This document shows positions 2,753 through 60,299 of a stretch of 64,000 nt of DNA, piece by piece; within the stretch, counting starts at the first letter, position 1, and each line of letters opens with the position of its first letter. The position numbers and the translations under genes were made by a program. Below the pieces are notes generated by a model that did no database searches, was not told the DNA's origin, and saw nothing but the letters and a program-made list of their open reading frames with translations. The DNA lies in NCBI GenBank assembly GCA_033439255.1, contig CM065883.1:682001-746000 (forward strand), in the 5' to 3' direction. Source of the DNA: Hericium rajendrae (Eukaryota > Basidiomycota > Agaricomycetes > Russulales > Hericiaceae).

Positions 2753-3318
2753 AGCGCGCATATGCTCGGTTTCTGGATATCATCCGGTACTTTTTTTACT
2801 TATTCTGTACCATACTGGCGGTCATGTACTATAATGTATTGCTTCGCGCGTAGTGTCCGTATGGACCGCATTCCGCTTGTGAATGATGAGGTCGACCATC
2901 GACGTTACTGTACTGCGTGTTGACCGAAACACCTCCGTATCGGGTCCGAAAGCACTAGTAGAGGAACCTCGCAACCGCGCGGCGGCGCTCGATCAGTTTT
3001 CGTCTCTTTACACAGCCCTGTCTCTAGCACTTCATCTGAATCTTCCCACTTCTTCCCCTCTATGCGCATGCCATCTCTCCATCAGACACTAGTGGACACT
3101 ATGGCAGACAGCGTCGGCAAAAATGATGATGCCATCCGCGATTGGGATATGCTTGGGATCTGCAGCTTGTACGTATCACCGCCCACATGCTTGCATCGGG
3201 AACTATCAATCCTCGAGAAGTCGAAGTTGACCCTGATAATTCGGCTTCCCGAGCTATAAAGTCAGTTACTTTTACCCGGTTTTCGACCTTGTGCTAATCC
3301 CCAGCCTGCTTTCGCTCA
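2753..3318. other. Intergenic spacer with promoter of the sedolisin gene
   Basis: Short open frames here show no family resemblance. The right end carries a TATA box, given separately. Nothing else is recognised. Confidence 0.45.
3255..3260 (+). promoter_or_regulatory. TATA box of the sedolisin gene
   Basis: A clean TATAAA lies 59 bases upstream of the sedolisin ATG, a usual distance for a fungal TATA promoter with a short 5' leader. Confidence 0.5.
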
Positions 3319-5653
3319 ATGCTCTGGCCAGCCTCCGTCCTCGCGTTCGTCGCGCTCGCCCAAGCGGCGCCGAAATGCGCCCACAAGCTCAAGGAGACCA
3401 TCGCGTCGCCTCGCGACTGGGAAATTGTCGGCGCGGCACCGCAGGACCACATCATTGAGCTGCGCATCGCGTTGCCTCAGCCGAACTTCCATCTCCTCGA
3501 GCAGCAGCTCTATGAGGTGAGCGACCCGTCACACGAGCGCTATGGAGAACATCTCTCGCAAAACGAGGTGAACGAGCTGGTCGCGCCGCATCCAGACAGC
3601 TTGGCAGCTGTGACGGAATGGTTGGCGGAGCATGGGATCCCGGAGAGCCAATACACGCGGTCGCCTGCGAATGATTGGTTCAAGGCGAAAGTCCCCGTGG
3701 GATTGGCGGAGAAAATGCTGGATACCGTGAGCGAAACTGTCTTATACTGCTCATTCGTCATCTGAGCACCATCTGCAGAAATATCACGTCTGGAAGCACT
3801 CCACGGACGGAGATGTCGTCGTGCGCACGACGAGCTATAGTCTCCCCGAAGATTTGCATGCACATATCGAGCTTGTTCAACCGACGACGATTTTCGCCCG
3901 TTTCAAAGGTCACCGCACTACTTTCCACTTCTCTGACGAGCAGAATGTTGGCCCTGCTCCCGGGATAGCGACGATCGTGGATCCCACCTCTGGTGTCAAG
4001 GTGGACGCGAGTTGCAACACGACAGTGACCATTACATGCCTGAAGGAGCTGTACAATGCAGTAGGCTATAAGACATCTGCTAAGAATGGCAACGAGATCG
4101 GAATCACTGGCTACCTTGAGCAATTCGCCAATATCCAGGATCTGCAAACCTTCTACGCTGATCAGCGACCGGATGCGCTCAATTCGTCGTTCAAGACTGT
4201 GTCCGTAAATGGTGAGTATTTTCCGAGTTTCACGCGTCTGACTTAACATCCGCTTTTGCACAGGTGGTGAGAACAATCAGACTTTGAGCGAGGCGGGTGC
4301 AGAGGCGAACCTCGATACCCAGTTCGCATATGGCTTGACGTTCCCCACGCCGGGTACCTTTTGGACCACAGCTGGCGAGCCGCCTTTCATTCCCGATAGC
4401 GGCACACCTACGGACACCAACGAGCCATACACCAAGGTGAGCGACAAACGCAATGGAATCGCTGAGTGACCCAACCCTTTTCCCGGATCTAGTGGCTCGA
4501 CTTCGTGCTTGCACAAAAGAAGATTCCTCAGACCATCTCAACAAGTTATGGAGATGATGAACAGACTGGTCAGTAGAGATCCATTTATCAATGTTTTGAC
4601 TGATGGCAATGCAGTTCCGGAGAGTTTCGCGCGGCGTGTGTGTGGCGACTTCGCAGTACTCGGTATTGCCTTCACTTGCCTCATCCACAATTCAAAATTT
4701 ATTGATCTTGTCCGCCAGGCGCTCGCGGAGTGACGCTGACATTCAGCTCCGGAGACGGAGGTGTTGGCGATGGCGATCCGAATCCCGCGACTCAATCCTG
4801 CCTGACGAACGACGGACGCAACGCTACCAAGTTCATTCCTGGCTTCCCGGCCAGTTGTCCTTTGTATGCGTTTTGTTCCGACTATAATATATTTGCTAAA
4901 ATAATCTTGAAACTAGTGTCACCGCAGTCGGAGGTACAATTCATGTCCCTGAGGTTGCAGTTGACTTCTCTGGAGGAGGCTTCAGCAATTACGTACGTAA
5001 ACAGCTCCGCGATTGACCTATTTGTCTGACTAGAGTTATTGCAATTACAGTTCGCTCGGCCTTCGTATCAAGAAGCGGCGGTGTCAGGTTTCCTTGAGAA
5101 GCTGCCCAAGGGCTTGTACAAAGGTCTTTCAATCCGTAAATACATCTAGTCCGTCGTTTCAACGTATGATGTCTGACAACTTATTTCTAGAAATGGACGC
5201 GTGAGTGCATATCTGTGATTGCGTCTGAATCCTGCGCACTGACGACTTGTCATCTCGCAGGCCATTCCGGATGTGTCTGCGCAGGCCGATAACTTCCGTA
5301 TCTTCCTCTCGGGTCGCGCAGTCTCCATTGGCGGCACCTCTGCGTCGTCGCCCACCTTCGCCGGTTTTGTCTCGCTCCTCAACGACGCTCGCCTTTCGGC
5401 AGGCCAGCCGCCTCTTGGCTTCATCAACCCTTTGCTCTACAGCATTGGTGTGGACGGATTCAATGATATCACAGTGGGCAACAATCCTGGATGTGGTACG
5501 CCCGGCTTCAACGTGAGTGCCTCGCGAGCTCGGTACATGATATACAGAATTGACAATACTTACTGTTCACAGGCTACGAAGGGTTGGGATGCCGTGACTG
5601 GGTTGGGTACACCGAATTTCGGAAAGCTGAAGGACATCGTGCTGTCTGTTTGA
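3319..5653 (+). CDS. Secreted S53 sedolisin (tripeptidyl-peptidase-like serine protease)
   Basis: The N-terminus ([17 protein letters not shown]) is a signal peptide, followed by the activation prodomain (residues about 30-190) typical of pro-kumamolisin. The catalytic S53 residues are visible: Glu and Asp in [11 protein letters not shown], the oxyanion Asp in [10 protein letters not shown], and Ser in [17 protein letters not shown] and IPDVSAQA also match the family. The protein should be exported and cleave tripeptides from protein N-termini at acidic pH. About eleven exons: 3319-3726, 3779-4211, 4264-4436, 4493-4568, 4615-4662, 4719-4863, 4917-4992, 5051-5135, 5191-5200 (10 nt), 5261-5512 and 5573-5653. 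Oddity: near 5126-5130 the frame needs one extra T to join exon 8 to the NGRAIPD exon, so an apparent one-base deletion breaks the gene; an assembly error is likely. Confidence 0.88.
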
Positions 5654-8429: not shown

Positions 8430-10448
8430 CTAGTCAAGTTCGTCCAGGTCGCGAGCAGCGAGAAGGGCAGTAAGCAGCTCGCGGCGGCTAACAAACTCCA
8501 GCGCACGTTTGGAACTAGATATGTCAGAAGATCAGCTTTAATCGGGGCATCATGAATGTCTATGTACTCACGTTGCGTTCCCGGAGTCGGAATCGTCACT
8601 ACCGCCACCGATTGGCAGAAGGCCAGCGAGAGGAAGGAGCTTAGCGATCTTTGAGAGGCCGTTCTTCAGCCCTTGAGGGATCGCGAGCTTGCGGGCCTCA
8701 AGATCATCGATATCCAGGTCATCGAGATCAAGACCGCTGAGGTCGAAGCCGCTGTCGAAGCTGCGCGCGTAGAGCTCCATGAGCTCGCGTCTCGACCTTC
8801 AAATAGCATCAGACTCTGTTTGTTGCAAGTTAAATGCCCAGATACATACGTCGCGTTGGCCGAGTCGTCGGAAGAGTCGTCGCTTCCGCCAGCGAGGGAA
8901 CCGAGAAGACCGGCGAAGGGAAGCAGAGATCCGAGCTTTCCCCCGAGCTTCTTGAGGCCGGGCGGGATGCTCAGCTTGCGCGCCTCCAGATCATCAATGT
9001 CGAAGTCGTCGAGATCAAGGTCGTCGAGGTTGAGATCCTCAAGCTGGCGGGTGTAGAGCTCGATGATCTCGCGCTTCGCCCTGTGAATTGATAAATTATT
9101 TATATACATCCTCATCGAAGTAAGTTCACATACGTTGCATTGGCTGAAGCGTCGGAAGAATCGTCGTTTCCACCAGCAAGGGACCCGAGAAGACCGGCGA
9201 AGGGAAGCAAAGACCCGAGCTTACCCCCGAGCTTCTTGAGGCCGGGCGGGATGCTCAATTTGCGCGCCTCAAGGTCGTCCATGTCGAAATCGTCGAGATC
9301 GAGGTCGTCGAGGTTGAGATCCTCAAGCTGGCGCACATAGAGCTCCATGAGGTCACGTTTCGCTCTGCAAGGTAATTAAATGGTCATTATCTCGCTATCT
9401 AAAGAGAGATAAATCCACATACGTCGCATTGGCAGAAGCGTCAGAGTCATCGCTACCACCTCCGAGGGGCAGGAGGCCTGCGAGAGGAAGGAGCTTGGCG
9501 ATCTTTGAAAGGCCGTTCTTCAGGCCTGCAGGGATTGCGAGCTTGCGTGCCTCGAGGTCATCGGCGTCGAGATCGTCGAGGTCAAGATCATCGAGGTCGA
9601 GATCATCGAGGTTCAAGTCCTCGAGCTGGCGCGTGTAGAGTTCGATGAACTCACGCTTTGCCCTACAGGTCGATTGCTTGTTTAGTATATCATCATCCAA
9701 TGTTATGAGTTCACGTACGTTGCATTGGCAGCAGCATCAGAGTCATCACTGCCGCCTCCGAGAGGCAGAAGGCCGGCAAGGGGTAGAAGCTTGGCAATCT
9801 TTGACAGGCCGTTCTTGAGACCAGCAGGGATCGTGAGCTTGCGTGTCTCGAGGTCGTCGGCATCGAGGTCGTCAAGGTCGAAGTCGTCGAAGTCGAGGTC
9901 CTCAAGCTGCCGCTGGTAGAGGTTGATGATCTCGCGCTTCGCCCTGCGGTTTGGTTACTTCGTTATTATCTCCATAACATATCCAAATGAGTTTACATAC
10001 GTCGCATTGGCAGAAGCGTCGGAGTCGTCGCTGCCGCCTCCGAGGGGCAGAAGGCCGGCAAGAGGGAGGAGCTTGGCGATCTTTGAGAGACCGTTCTTCA
10101 GGCCTGCAGGGATCGCGATCCTCCGCGCCTCAAGGTCATCGAAGTCGAAGTCGTCAATATCCTCTCCATCAAGCGAGCGCGTGAGCAGCTCGATCAGTTG
10201 GCGTTCATTGAGCTCCGTGTTCCTGAAATGAACGTGAGCATCTGCGTCAAAACGATGTCGCGGAAGGGCTCGACTTACTGGTGCCTCGCCGCCAATTCCA
10301 TGCTATTCCTCATCCTATGCAGTCTCAACATTAGTTCAAATCTGCGAAAAAGGAAATTCTTTACATACGGGATGGGGCCGGAGACAGCAGGGGCAGCATA
10401 AGCAGCAAGAGTCAAAGCAATGACAGCGATGGTGAAAGTGGAACGCAT
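8430..10448 (-). CDS. Secreted Kex2-processed tandem-repeat polyprotein (candidalysin/KEP-like architecture)
   Basis: Nine exons, all joined in phase 2, give 524 residues: 10448-10369, 10314-10279, 10222-10001, 9943-9719, 9662-9423, 9364-9134, 9080-8850, 8796-8572 and 8514-8430. The start encodes a signal peptide (MRSTFTIAVIALTLAAYAA). Each of exons 3-8 encodes one repeat of 73-79 residues: an ELY.RQL segment, an acidic Asp/Leu run, EARKL, then a cationic helical stretch such as GLKNGLSKIAKLLPLAGLL, a GGSDDSD tail and an NAT glycosylation sequon. Exon junctions create dibasic sites: TAKR four times, TSRR, TSKR, plus SRR near the end. Known biology: Kex2 cuts after KR/RR in the Golgi, as in alpha-factor, Ece1/candidalysin and fungal KEPs. 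I infer that this precursor releases several similar peptides. Membrane activity is a hypothesis; structural surface peptides or a RiPP precursor are alternatives. Confidence 0.85.
8572..10222 (-). repeat. Six exon-encoded tandem repeats of the polyprotein
   Basis: In transcript order the units are 10222-10001, 9943-9719, 9662-9423, 9364-9134, 9080-8850 and 8796-8572, each one symmetric phase-2 exon of 222-240 nt separated by short introns. Two sequence types occur: type A (GLKNGLSKIAKLLPL) in units 1, 2, 3 and 6, and type B (GLKKLGGKLGSLLPF) in units 4 and 5. The acidic run differs in length, longest in unit 3. Units 4 and 5 are nearly identical, pointing to recent duplication or gene conversion. 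Confidence 0.9.
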
Positions 10449-13400
10449 TGTGTGAATAGACGTGGACAAGTGAAAGGGTGGATAAAAAAGAGTGGTTGAT
10501 CTTTGACTATAAGGAAAGTTGGGAAGAAAGGTGGTCAGAGGGGTACCAGTACCCGAAGAATGCGAAAAGGTGAACGTAAGTGGGGAGCGAACCGGGCTGA
10601 GGAAATTTTCCTGCATTGGCCTTGTATTTATATGTTCTGGCTACAGGGCTTGACGCTCAATGGTGTGGTGGCTGGTCTCGCCGACAATGGGCCTTGGAAA
10701 TTCTGCATAACCGCTGTCGTGATGAGCGCTGCAGAATCTGTCATGGTGCACAGGTTTCGCACATGCACATCCGTAAGAGATGATGGCAAGTGAGCTTCTT
10801 CACCCGTCCCCTTGACCGTATGATTGACGCGTTGTCCATCGAATATGTACGTTCGAAACGGGGGTTCCTACTGAATGACAACGTTATCCATGGGCAGTTT
10901 TGTGGAACGTTATTCATGAACTTGACCATGAGCTGAGATCGCTGCGCGCCGTTGACCGGTCTGTTTCGGATGCCCACTCGTTATCAGGAACACACGACTG
11001 ACTGTTACTCCAATGCTATCAAAGCAACTTGCAAATTGATACAATATGGTGAGATGTTTTCGGCCGCCCTCGATCTTGCTAGGGCAATCGCAGCCTCTAG
11101 TGCGTAGGGGCAATGTGCGACATCAATGGACACTTATGAAAGATCAAGGCCCATAAGATGGAATATCGAGTCTGGAGGCGACTATGAACACCGATTGTCA
11201 GCAGAAAGCTAAATAAAATTGAAATTCAACTCAGCGAACCATCCACCATCCATCCTAACGAGCGATACGCCCAGTCCTCCGGGAAAGAAAGACAACTGGA
11301 AAATTCACCCGTCGCATAGACGAGGTCTCAGTTGGCCTGTCACGCATGTACTTACTTACTTCCTCATGATCGGATGAAATAAACCGGCCGTGCTTGGTTC
11401 CCGGTAAGATGATGACAACCAGCAAACCACCGTACGCCAACAAGCGTGCAATGCAACAACTATCAAATTCAGTGATCTGTCCGTGCGTACGACGTGCCAA
11501 GTCTGGTTGAGCCAAAGGTACTAGCACGTTTGATAGAAGTGGCGGTCCTCGGCAACGCCAGACCAGATCAGCAGCGAGGGGTTCAAGAAACAGAGAATTG
11601 CGATTCTCATGAGCTGTCCACTGAGAACGTGAAGAAGCTTAAGGTCCCATCGGGAGATCATTTGATAAATTGACACTCGGCCGCTGGACTAGCACAGTAC
11701 CGCTCGCTGAGACAGCGGTGGTACGACGTCTAGCGCAACTCGCAATGATGATGGAAAATGGCAGCAAGCGGTGCATTACGAGGGCGCGCATCGCAACTAA
11801 CGCATGTTATCGATAACAAAATCAGCCGCGCTTGAAAATGACAGGACAGCAGCTGCATTGTGAGCACACACCTCTGATCATTGGCACTGACAGTGATTGT
11901 CATGCATGAGCACATGGAATCCACCCAGCTCCCGGGCCATCATGGCGCTGGCTTGAAAGTTGATACAGAAGCATGGACGCCTTCGGAAGTTTGGCACCTG
12001 CGAGACCATTGAGCTTCTTTTCGATCTAGAATCTTAGTCTACGCACAAGACTGGAATCGTCGTGAGGGGTGACCAGTGAACTCGAGGATCAAAAATTTAA
12101 AGCCAAAGCCAGGTGGTCGCGATGGGTAGAGATGGTGGCGATGGGAACTGGAAAGTTTAGACCCCAAGGGCGGGCCGGCTCTCCGGGCGCTCGAGGTCAC
12201 GATAATGGCAACCTACCCCGGCCCGGAAATTGTAATGTGTACCTCGGAAGAGAGATGGCATTCAGAACCCATTCGCATGTTAGTATATGTACTCTAGCAC
12301 CAGACGGGTGAAAGCGCCTTTCATCAACCCAGAGGATCTCTGGTATCCTTAGCACGTTAGCCAGCCCCAGCATTGTCAAATTGAAGGAACATTTTTGGAG
12401 CCTCGCGAGCAGAGTATGGACTTTGATGTACTCGGATATGTATGAGCAAGGCAACTAATAGATGGATGAAGAAAAGACACATATGCAGCCAGTCCAGATG
12501 ATGTGTTGGTTGGGATGGACCTATCGGTGCCATGCGTTGGCGTTGTTCGCTGGGATCTTTTTAGCGGAAAGCCTGATTGAACGCTCCTTCCAGTCGTAAT
12601 TGTCACTTCCGGGAGATTGTTGATTGAGAGGACGTCGACGTCATTTCTAGATGTCGAAAATGAAAGAATACCAGTGTCCAGGGTGCCATTAGTGGGAGAC
12701 ATTCACTCTACCAGGAATTTGTGGAGGGTCAGTCGGACAAGCGTTGTCGTCGACGAGCATTCCAGAGAAGGGAAATGAGGATTGCCTTCGTCCGTTGTAC
12801 ATGATATCGATCGACCACCAAAATTCCTTTTCCACCAGGCCAGTCTGCACACGATCCGGCGTCATTGTAGCAGTGACGGCGACGTTAACGACAATGTATT
12901 GGGCATTGATGGCCGAGCCGATCCCAGTGGAACCACGCTCGATGACCAGCTCAGTCCCAGATATCCTGTCGGGGGTGCTTGCCAAGTAAATGTTGATTAG
13001 AATAACAGAGCCAGAATAACAGAGCCTTCGGGCGGCGGTGGAAGACTGATACGAAGATTGGCGACCATGCGATTGTAAGATGAAAAATCAGAAGGCGTAC
13101 CCATGACGGTGGGTCGCGAGCGGCCTACGGTTGTCAAGTGAGCCAGAGCGAGGAACCATCTTCATGCGTATGGCGATCAGCGAAACCCTGACCGTGGAGG
13201 AACCACCATAAATGATACCAGCGAACGACGATGGTGTCTGAACTGCGACAGTAAGACAAACGCATAGAGCGGGAACAAATATTGATTACCGATTTTCTGT
13301 AACCCTGCTCATCGCAGTTTACCCGATTCGTACATTACATCATCACGTTCGACTTTAGCATACGGTTTCATGGCTTCACTCCTTTAGTTTTACCGTCACC

Positions 13401-14854
13401 TTCCTTGTATCCCTTGTCTAGTCCTCGACAATATACCGTGGTCATAACAACTTCTTGTGTGATCTCGTCTCTCAGTGTTGTCTGCTAGCGCAGGCTTCCA
13501 TCTTCATGGGTTGAAACTGAGTTGACGAGCGAATTAGGCGAGTCAGGGCGGAAAGAAAACGACAAAATGGAAAGAATGAGGTGTCCAGCACCTGTAGCGC
13601 GTATCATGAGCAACGATGTTAAGGGAACGTCGCTTTCGATGGCCTTCATTTATATGTCGGGGACGGGGAACATAAGCCCAAGGAAAAAACACCCTGCAGG
13701 GCTGGAAACCAGACGAGACACGCGTTTCGATCAAAACGTCAACCGACGGCTAGTATGTCTCGGTCTCGAGCTCGGCGCTGAGTTGTGTGATCTGCTTAAG
13801 CATTGGTTCAGATAGTCACCAAACTACTCCACCCGAGTCCATCCGGGACGTGCCCACAAAGCATCTGCACGCTATTGAAGGTCTCACCTTCACCGCGCGG
13901 TCGCAAAAGTAGCGAACACGACCAGCGGTGATCTGGCGATCAACGGATTGAGGCAATGTGTATCAAGGATCTGGCTGACTCTGCAGGTAATGAAATGATT
14001 AGTGATGGCTTGGGATGCACGAAAACTATAAACCGATACCATTCTGCCAATATTGTAGAAAAGCATGCATGCGCACCTTGGGATGTACGCGAGGCAGATG
14101 TTGAATGCTCCCCGTCGCGGACGATCCTGCAGGTCGCAAACGGCCTGTGTGCATGTCAAATAGCGACCCGAGACGAGCGACAGACTCTGATCTCCGAGCT
14201 CTGCGGTGAACCGGGTATAACGCATCGCCATCAGGCACGAGATAGCCCCAAACGGAGATACCGATCATGGCTCCAATACAGCATGGTTCCCGCCGGCGAC
14301 AGTGAGCGCATGCCGTCAGTGCGCTGTCACCTGCATCCTGGATTTCCGGGGTTTGACGGATGCCGAGGTATACCACGCTGTAGATTCCATTTCGTGTTAG
14401 AGAAGACGAAGAAGATCAAGGTCGAGCTGGACCGCGAAGCTTCCGACTATTATGATCAAACGTGAAAGGCGTGGTATCACCGAAAAGGCGATGCTTGAGA
14501 TGTGGGTAAGGGCATCGGCTACAGACATCAGGCTGAAGAAGAGCTTTGAGCTCGGGCACTCGTTGATCTGGAAGGGGTTGTAACTGCTAACGTCGTGGAC
14601 TATTCCGTAGGAAGTCGTCTCGGACATCACTGAGGATCGACAAGAACCAGTGGTTACCCATCAGCGAATGTAGATGACAGAATGTGTATTACTTTGAAGT
14701 GACGAAGGATCACAGCAGTACTTCAACGATACCTTCCTTGCGAATTTGTTGCGGATTACATCCTCCAGATCATCATGATGCGCGTCGGGCAAGCACCAAG
14801 CCTAAACCCATCATATCATACAGCAATGGCACGTAGAAAAACGAACAGATTAGT
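10449..14854. other. 4.4-kb gene-poor interval, possible decayed genes
   Basis: I find no reading frame longer than about 170 codons and no recognisable domain. The left end is the promoter of the polyprotein gene. Frames on the minus strand near 12380-12985 and 14400-14630 have protein-like composition (for example SKLFFSLMSVADALTHISSI, hydrophobic) but could not be linked by splice sites into a gene. They may be remnants of a membrane-protein gene. No terminal repeats or transposase were seen. Confidence 0.4.
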
Positions 14855-58133: not shown

Positions 58134-60299
58134 TCCTCTAGAGCTGCGAAACACACTGTGTGGCATATGTCTTGGTTAGCATACACTATATCACCGCAAT
58201 GTAACTAGACGACGTCTTCATGATGTCCATTCCGTCTCACGTGGACGATTCATGGAATGCGCTGACGACTTTATGTACCATCTACATGACGGACCGTATA
58301 ATTTACGAACTGACGAGTAAGTCCATTATCCACAATTTTGGAAAATGAGCGTTTGGTGAGTATTTTTACATTGTCTGGCCACTGGAACTTCCGCTCTGAC
58401 TTTACTGCGTGATGCACCGGGGCTACAGTAGCGAGGAAGGAATGAAGCACTGCGCGTCGACCCAGATTTTTGGGGAGGGAAAATCGCCAGAAAGTTTGGT
58501 TTTCAACGAATTAATCCTTCCGGACATTTCCGGGACAAAGCGCTTGAAAGTCGCTTGTGGTTCCGAATTTCACCCGCATTATCAAGGCATTGTGTCCATG
58601 GAGGACCATCTGCCCGCGCCCCTGCCGCTTCATTTTGTATATATAAAATCGCTTTAAATGCTCAATAAATCGAGAATGCCTTGTACTCGACATTTGCATA
58701 ATCGCAGCAGGCAGCGTGCCGCGCGCTAGATACACACGAGGCTTGTAACTATGCTTCTCAGCAAGAAAGGCAGGACAGATGCCCATTGGGGGCTGAAATC
58801 ACAGAGTGCGGTAGAATAAATTCATCAATAGTGATACGATAATAGTATGTCATCGAGGTGGACGACTGGGGAGGGGATCGAGCGAAAGCGAAGCTGAGAT
58901 GCTGGTTATATGGGTCGGACGCTGGGATGTTTCTCGCCCGTTCCTCATCTACAGAGCTATCTGTGAGCACGAAAAACAGCAGTCTCAACAGCCCACGTAC
59001 CGTGCAGCATGTCCTCCAAATTGCATTCAACAGCACTGGATGATCATCTTGCCCAATCTCTGAAAAGCTCTCTGCCAAAACGAGCGCCTGTATAACAGGG
59101 CGCGCAGATGAGCAGGACGAGCGGCGCGGGACCGCTGAAGGATGGACTTACCGGCGTCGTCCGTATTATCACCATTTGGCGAGGAGTATTGTTCTCCCTC
59201 GTCTTCCACATGCTGCTTCAATGATAGATGAAGGATGGACTTACCGGCGTCGTCCGTATCGTCACCATTTGGCGAGAAGTATTGTTCTCCCTCGTCTTCC
59301 ACATGCTGCTTCAATGATAGAGAAGTCAGAACCGTACACAGTATCATAGACACTAGTTATCATACATATGCAGCGACGTTTCGCTGGAGGTTCTCACTCT
59401 GGAGACAATGAGCGAGCACAGTCTGGAGGATTCGTATTGCTGCCCGGCTTCGAGCTGTCCTTCTGCTTCAGCACGGGTACCCTTGATGCCCTTAATCGTG
59501 CTAGTTCGGTACTGCTGCGATCTCGAGCGTAATGATTGTAGATTGTGCGCAGTATTTGGGCCCGACGCGCTCGTATATCGAACAAGCCGTACAAGGGCAG
59601 TATTGCAGTTTGCTCGAGCTCATGGGTACTGTAGAAAAGCGGGATCTTTAGTAAACTATGTGAGTATATAAATGATCTTGTGGAGAGCGAGAAAGATAGC
59701 ATATAGTCACCTCACACGCGTAGGAGGTCTAAGTGGCGCAGGCAGGCAGTCGCGACTTAGAGAAATTCGACGCGTCGAAGTCATGTCCCTCATAGTCAGC
59801 GATATGACGTGATCAAATTCAATTATTGGTCTAAGGACAATCGCCCGATCTCGACCTGACCCGACATTCGCCCGAAAGTCCCTAAAAATTCAACTTTCCC
59901 TCCATTATCCTGTCCTGAAATTTAGGCTCGACGCGCAGTGAAGCGTTGCTCAGATGTCTACATCATCATAAGTTTCAAATTGGAGCCGCGTGATGTAGAC
60001 GAGTGCCCATAGGCTAACATGTGTCCATGTCAAGCATGTCATCATCACTTCCCTTTCATTCATCTGACCCATGTCGAGATGCAAAATGCTGAATCAGTGA
60101 GGTTCCGTTTCAATCCACTCGTGACGATATCTGCTCCTTGGCATAATTACCTCCGAGCTGCATTGGGACCGTGCATCATTTGAAGCTCTCCAATGGGGCC
60201 TTCCTAGTCATCTGCAGTCGAGTTCATCGAGCTCCGCTTTGCTTTAAAGCCAACAATGGAGGCCACTGGCCTGTGGTAGCCCGTCGCCTCATCTCCAAT
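58134..60299. other. Intergenic region containing a 93-bp tandem duplication
   Basis: No recognised gene in about 2.2 kb. Minus-strand frames at 58758-59353 and 59394-59702 may belong to one unknown spliced gene. The duplicated block inside it is listed separately. Confidence 0.4.
59136..59321. repeat. Tandem duplication, 2 x 93 bp
   Basis: Two head-to-tail copies of 93 bp differ by only a few substitutions. On the minus strand each encodes the same 31-residue phrase (HVEDEGEQY.SPNGD.TDDAG) and contains a possible gtaagt donor. Because the unit is a multiple of three, the frame is kept. Confidence 0.85.

Follow-up and report, generated by a model that had tools for sequence, protein, structure and literature searches.

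The window analysed here is a 64,000-nucleotide stretch of the Hericium rajendrae genome. On its minus strand we found a gene that runs from an ATG at 10448 to a stop codon at 8430, exactly where a previous sequence-only reading had placed it. Our gene model has nine exons with a coding length of 1575 nt, corresponding to a protein of 524 aa, and eight introns of 53–58 nt, all bounded by GT..AG and all in one common codon phase (Table 1). Exon 1 encodes a signal-peptide-like start and exon 2 a linker, each of exons 3–8 encodes a single repeat unit, and exon 9 supplies a short end. The spliced reading agrees with the earlier proposal of six similar units behind a signal peptide. Introns 3–8 interrupt the T codon of the NAT motif found near the end of each unit, and therefore the dibasic site that closes a unit is placed at the start of the following exon. 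The exon order is supported by a hypothetical protein of Hericium alpestre (P0001, 519 aa), which aligns with the spliced product from end to end at 93% identity.

Table 1 Features of the precursor gene and of its surroundings in the window.
Feature	Coordinates	Strand	Basis or remark
Possible TATA box, TATAAAT, 184 nt upstream of start codon	10626..10632	-	Consensus match only
Exon 1: start codon and signal-peptide-like MRSTFTIAVIALTLAAYAAPAVSGPIP	10369..10448	-	Hydrophobic stretch by hydropathy
Exon 2: short linker	10279..10314	-	Gap-free alignment to H. alpestre P0001
Exon 3: unit 1, type A core, internal site LEARR	10001..10222	-	Gene model and repeat comparison
Exon 4: AKR site and unit 2, type A, LETRK	9719..9943	-	Gene model and repeat comparison
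Exon 5: AKR site and unit 3, type A, LEARK	9423..9662	-	One 5-residue acidic repeat more than in H. alpestre
Unit 3, site and acidic half (LDLDD pentads, LEAR at end)	9545..9661	-	
Unit 3, cationic half KLAIPAGLKNGLSKIAKLLPLAGLLPLGGGS and acidic tail DDSDASANA(T)	9425..9544	-	
Exon 6: AKR site and unit 4, type B core GLKKLGGKLGSLLPFAGLL	9134..9364	-	
Exon 7: AKR site and unit 5, type B	8850..9080	-	
Exon 8: SRR site and unit 6, type A	8572..8796	-	
Exon 9: SKR site, short C-terminal part ALEFVSRRELLTALLAARDLDELD, stop	8430..8514	-	
Pro-kumamolisin activation domain	3298-4243	+	Pfam

The six units measure about 73–80 aa each, and units 1, 2, 4, 5 and 6 are 73–89% identical to unit 3. A unit starts with a stretch such as EIIELYTRQLED and continues into an acidic block of pentads, for example LDLDD or FDLDD, with LEAR or LETR at its end. 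This is followed by the motif K/R-L/I-x-IP-x-G and by a cationic, leucine-rich core, which occurs in two types. The type A core, GLKNGLSKIAKLLPLAGLL, which had been put forward as the core of the unit in general, is present in units 1, 2, 3 and 6, but units 4 and 5 carry the type B core GLKKLGGKLGSLLPFAGLL in its place. The tail of each unit is again acidic, begins with DDS and contains NAT, so that every unit ends NAT-(A/S)(K/R)R, with AKR at four unit ends and SRR and SKR at one each, as the dibasic sites TAKR, TSRR and TSKR of the sequence-only reading had indicated.

A second site, LE(A/T)R(K/R), lies inside every unit and is kept in all 12 units of the two Hericium species. It reads RK in five of the six window units and RR in unit 1 alone, and even this RR is replaced by RK in H. 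alpestre. In 7 of the 12 units (3/6 in the window, 4/6 in H. alpestre) the internal R(K/R) is followed by IAIP or LAIP, and in the remaining 5 by LTIP or LSIP, whereas the six unit-end sites of the window protein are followed by EI, EF, DL, EI, EL and AL, none of them an XA or XP dipeptide. The N-glycosylation sequon NAT precedes each dibasic unit end (NATx(K/R)R in 12/12 units, two species), and neither protein contains any other N-x-S/T sequon.

The acidic half of a unit has a net charge of -8 to -14 and a pI of 4.1–4.2 (the value for unit 1 includes the linker), and the segment from K/R to GGS (or GGN) has a net charge of +4 in all six window units. The pairing of an acidic with a cationic stretch proposed for every unit is thus present, yet the units taken whole all carry a net negative charge (-6 to -13), and the C-half together with its tail reaches only 0 or +1.

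Three longer families of direct repeats (137–240 nt) show 63–87% DNA identity to their own reference copies, which argues against a chance origin of the repeat; the pairwise identity of introns 3–8 is 38–67%. The ratio dN/dS of whole units was 0.06–0.25 in all 15 unit pairs, which share units and are therefore non-independent, and in which the high dS values are rough. For the acidic part the ratio was 0.06–0.34 in 13 pairs, with unit pairs 1–3 and 1–6 saturated, and for the C-half 0.02–0.28 in 14 pairs, with pair 2–4 saturated; in the C-halves of units 2 and 3, dS was 0.95 and dN 0.02. Furthermore, 81 of the 99 nucleotide differences in the six pairs of type A C-halves fall on third codon positions. 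Together, this third-position bias and the low dN/dS indicate a coding, conserved repeat: as judged from the sequence, synonymous sites of the unit exons diverge while the encoded residues are retained, and the gene is a real one under constraint at the protein level. Tandem repeats of 15 bp at 9552–9625 and 9848–9906 encode acidic pentads, and since H. alpestre lacks one pentad of unit 3, the length of the acidic block can shift by one pentad.

P0001 was the sole relative found among 5.8 billion sequences, in searches with E values of up to 0.001 and up to 10, and a 164-aa query designed for relatives with fewer units had no match in the same collection (E up to 10). These searches require exact shared words and a similar length, and one of them scored the best 7999 candidates by shared words, so distant relatives could be missed. 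We found no further copy of the gene beyond its own locus using protein queries and one DNA query against the 46.8 Mb genome (19 contigs), in a search that scored the best candidates only and in which the query with the acidic half recovered 5 of the 6 units. Nothing meaningful was found among PDB entries, and titles and abstract openings yielded no literature on this gene or on Kex2-processed repeat proteins (KEPs) of Hericium. On these searches, the precursor is so far seen only in Hericium, and the basidiomycete setting assumed previously is borne out by the H. alpestre relative. The two proteins differ at 4/27 signal, 10/201 acidic, 10/188 cationic, 3/79 tail and 2/24 C-terminal positions, in addition to the one 5-residue acidic repeat. 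The cationic part is thus no better conserved between the species than the acidic part, which argues against the cationic part as the sole payload.

A Pfam scan of 30 ORFs of the window gave 14 with a match at an E value no worse than 0.01; one of these matches, THOC3-like, was below its own cut-off. Besides the pro-kumamolisin activation domain (Table 1), the matches include RRS1, an alpha/beta hydrolase, TFIIB, lipin, a 3'-5' exonuclease domain, DUF6729, Btz, RRN3 and CTNNBL. Downstream of the pro-kumamolisin activation domain, the motif GGTSASSP was recognised by eye in an ORF without a Pfam match (5243–5650), and the interval 3298–5650 of the plus strand probably represents a gene for a secreted sedolisin (S53) protease. 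Apart from this protease, none of the scanned ORFs suggested a peptide-processing or peptide-modifying gene, and no biosynthetic cluster was evident among them. The gene-poor region adjoining the precursor gene contains a dispersed repeat of about 203 bp (13298–13500), with copies on contigs C7, C8 and C10 that are 81–97% identical, two of them partial. A 93-bp unit is present in 2.1 tandem copies, with 95% matches, at 59136–59325.

The class to which this architecture points is that of the KEPs, which are defined by three or more similar units set between Kex2 sites (PMC6339444; PMC9769878), by a length of at most 800 aa (PMC9769878) and by not being membrane-bound (PMC6339444), and for which units of 3–352 aa are reported (PMC6339444). 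The Hericium precursor has six similar units between KR/RR sites, its 524 aa are within the permitted length and its units are inside the reported size range. As judged by hydropathy only, a charged start is followed by a hydrophobic stretch (mean Kyte-Doolittle value 1.88 over residues 5–20), and the highest 19-residue value after this signal is 1.26, with no stretch suggesting a transmembrane helix. The genome also carries a kexin gene, recognised by a P-domain above its cut-off at C12:765907–766077, a second piece at C12:765763–765864, and subtilase motifs and a membrane span identified by eye. By architecture, therefore, the precursor is a KEP, as had been suggested, probably secreted, with a putative signal peptide recognised by hydropathy only, and belongs to an already known, diverse class that includes many orphans. 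Because a survey of 7878 KEPs counted 2560 without homologues (PMC7329392), the expression "undescribed system" used for this locus was too strong. The type of precursor is known in fungi; for its sequence and for units built of two such parts we found no description in the portions of the KEP literature that we consulted.

We give about even chances to a mechanism in which this KEP undergoes a second cut that frees a membrane-active cationic C-half in two variants. After removal of the signal peptide, Kex2 would very probably cleave the precursor at KR and RR in the Golgi and release peptides the size of a unit. Cutting at KR/RR in silico gives 9 fragments after residue 24; unit 1, with its internal RR, is the only unit split internally, while units 2–6 stay whole and keep a net charge of -8 to -13, so that freeing a cationic peptide takes a further cut, at LE(A/T)R(K/R). 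We place such a cut, which would part the acidic block from a C-half of about 40 residues with a short amphipathic K-rich helix, slightly below an even chance. In its favour are the conservation of the site in 12/12 units and the charge contrast between acidic half and cationic segment. Against it stand the net acidic KR/RR products and the predominance of RK at the internal site, since RK is a poor Kex2 site, and the near-neutral charge of the C-half plus tail speaks against a cationic payload. Both type B cores also contain KK, and a cut at this pair would break the helix. On the other hand, for KEPs of C. cinerea expressed in Pichia, cleavage after a single Arg has been suggested (PMC9769878), which lends plausibility to a cut at LE(A/T)R. 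STE13 removes XA-XP dipeptides after Kex2 sites, X often being D or E (PMC9769878), and IAIP/LAIP, which are dipeptides of this kind with L or I as X, are a hint that the internal cut could be real.

In the remainder of the proposed mechanism, the acidic block and the acidic tail, possibly with an N-glycan at NAT, would neutralise the helix and maintain its solubility within the cell; once outside, the freed peptide would act on the membranes of competitors or grazers, with variants A (units 1, 2, 3, 6) and B (units 4, 5) supplied by a single transcript. A helical cationic stretch had been claimed before. The high helical moment of 13-residue pieces of the core, which were chosen afterwards, was reached by 0.4% (type A) and 3.3% (type B) of shuffles, but the full cores of 19–22 residues are not strikingly amphipathic, as 6% and 19% of shuffles reached their moment. 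AlphaFold predictions for the six units (mean pLDDT 54.9, pTM 0.20) placed helices at 2–15, 33–38 and 45–57, the last corresponding to AGLKNGLSKIAKL, with low confidence. Moments and model together thus provide weak support at best for a cationic helix. A pentapeptide-repeat fold was also considered for the LDLDD pentads, which have a fitting spacing, and was set aside, as no such Pfam match was obtained and AlphaFold predicted coil, with low confidence.

An alternative that we consider unlikely, yet worth keeping in sight, is that the whole acidic/cationic units are the end products of this KEP and, being charge-paired, serve a structural or surface-active role, perhaps as a coat on aerial hyphae or spines. 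The KR/RR sites alone give whole units in five of six cases, the two species conserve both halves to about the same degree, and amyloid-like fibrils are formed by the Rep1 peptides of Ustilago maydis, likewise products of a KEP (PMC9769878). Nevertheless, against it stand the retention of LE(A/T)R(K/R) in all 12 units and a change in the length of the acidic block by one step of 5 residues, which would suit a spacer. Rep1 resembles the Hericium precursor as a basidiomycete KEP that yields several peptides (PMC9769878); word-based protein searches found no sequence relation between the two, and fibril formation is a feature of Rep1.

We regard as improbable a secreted repeat protein with N-glycans that stays unprocessed or is processed in part, in which the acidic pentads would form an extracellular cation-binding or wall-associated polymer and the dibasic sites would be incidental or masked by glycans. 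The position of all six sequons directly ahead of the dibasic unit ends and the regularity of the pentads fit such a protein, but the dibasic pair is kept at 12/12 unit ends although its neighbours vary (AKR, VKR, SRR, SKR), and the genome possesses a kexin gene. A precursor of a signalling or modified peptide, either alpha-pheromone-like or a dikaritin RiPP, is disfavoured and in our view very improbable. These precursors share the overall KEP architecture (PMC9769878), and XA-XP follows the internal R(K/R) in 7/12 units of the two species, yet the dipeptides are missing after all six unit-end sites, and the units are far longer than the 9–24 aa of alpha pheromones (PMC6339444). Furthermore, no UstYa (DUF3328) was present among the 30 window ORFs scanned; a genome-wide search for UstYa had no match either, though this search also missed its control.

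The precursor had been described as belonging to no named family, which formally does not hold: Pfam PF10279, Latarcin, matched it at 33.1 bits against a cut-off of 25, as the sole family above its cut-off among the seven listed, and matched P0001 at 26.9 bits. When the cationic halves were scrambled the match was retained (27.3 bits), whereas it was lost when the acidic halves or both halves were scrambled (one scramble each); unit 3 alone, unit 4 alone and either half of unit 3 gave no Latarcin match. Because the match survives scrambling of the cationic but not of the acidic halves, these single scrambles point to the acidic repeats and their Glu-x-Arg end as its main source, to which the cationic part adds a few bits. 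Despite the scores in both species and the common layout, in which an anionic block is followed by a Glu-x-Arg motif and then by a cationic peptide, we reject, and give next to no credence to, a true latarcin homologue sharing descent with spider venom precursors, since the match is not carried by the peptide itself, units 3 and 4 taken singly do not yield it, and the word-based protein searches returned no animal relative.

Among known systems, the precursor is closest in build to other KEPs, with which it shares the signal-peptide-like start, the six similar units, KR/RR at the unit ends and a kexin in the same genome. It differs from them in its long units with a strict acidic-then-cationic layout, and in the internal Arg site and the sequon that stand ahead of each dibasic unit end. 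Most KEP peptides are without known function (PMC9769878); knocking out six kep genes in Coprinopsis caused no phenotype in pure culture (PMC9769878). Synthetic KEP peptides of C. cinerea were inactive against the bacterial strains on which they were tried (PMC9769878), a point against the membrane-active reading.

The likeness to Ece1 and candidalysin of Candida albicans, which the sequence-only reading had proposed, holds for a secreted precursor with KR sites and for a helical amphipathic segment proposed as the active part. In Ece1, however, the toxin occurs once, as a segment flanked by KR sites (PMC7329392; PMC5784256), while here the cationic module occurs sixfold, is bounded on its N-side by LE(A/T)R(K/R) instead of KR, and is joined to an acidic block from which KR/RR cuts alone would not separate it in five of the six units. 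Word- and length-bound searches of the 5.8 billion sequences, in which P0001 was the only match, gave no sequence relation to Ece1, and we consider the likeness to candidalysin a weak analogy.

The complex precursors of spiders (latarcins, cupiennins) offer a further parallel. In these, many peptides are encoded per transcript and anionic linkers stand between the cationic peptides (PMC7889660); the linkers end in a motif with Arg at position -1 and Glu at -2 to -4, and also have an inverted motif with Arg first (PMC7889660). In the Hericium protein, anionic stretches with a Glu-containing end in Arg likewise alternate with cationic peptides, LE(A/T)R fits the published motif, and RQLE, which opens the acidic block in four of six units, fits the inverted one. 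The differences are that the gene is fungal, that the blocks are rich in Asp and not in Glu, and that KR sites between units and sequons are present. The resemblance in layout is apparently one of convergence. A fuller version of the two-cut mechanism, which we regard as possible though doubtful, would have a self-neutralising mask of Asp/Leu pentads joined to a membrane-active helix and freed by two different cuts, one by Kex2 at KR/RR and the other at Glu-x-Arg, perhaps with STE13-type trimming of LA-IP, as a spider-type precursor that evolved independently and delivers a two-variant defence mix. Constraint and charge layout together predict which bonds would be cut and which piece would act on membranes. 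If this were true, the precursor, from a genus which includes an edible mushroom, would be a mushroom counterpart of the candidalysin-type and spider-type cytolytic precursors, and a clear case of convergence in the safe storage of membrane-active peptides.
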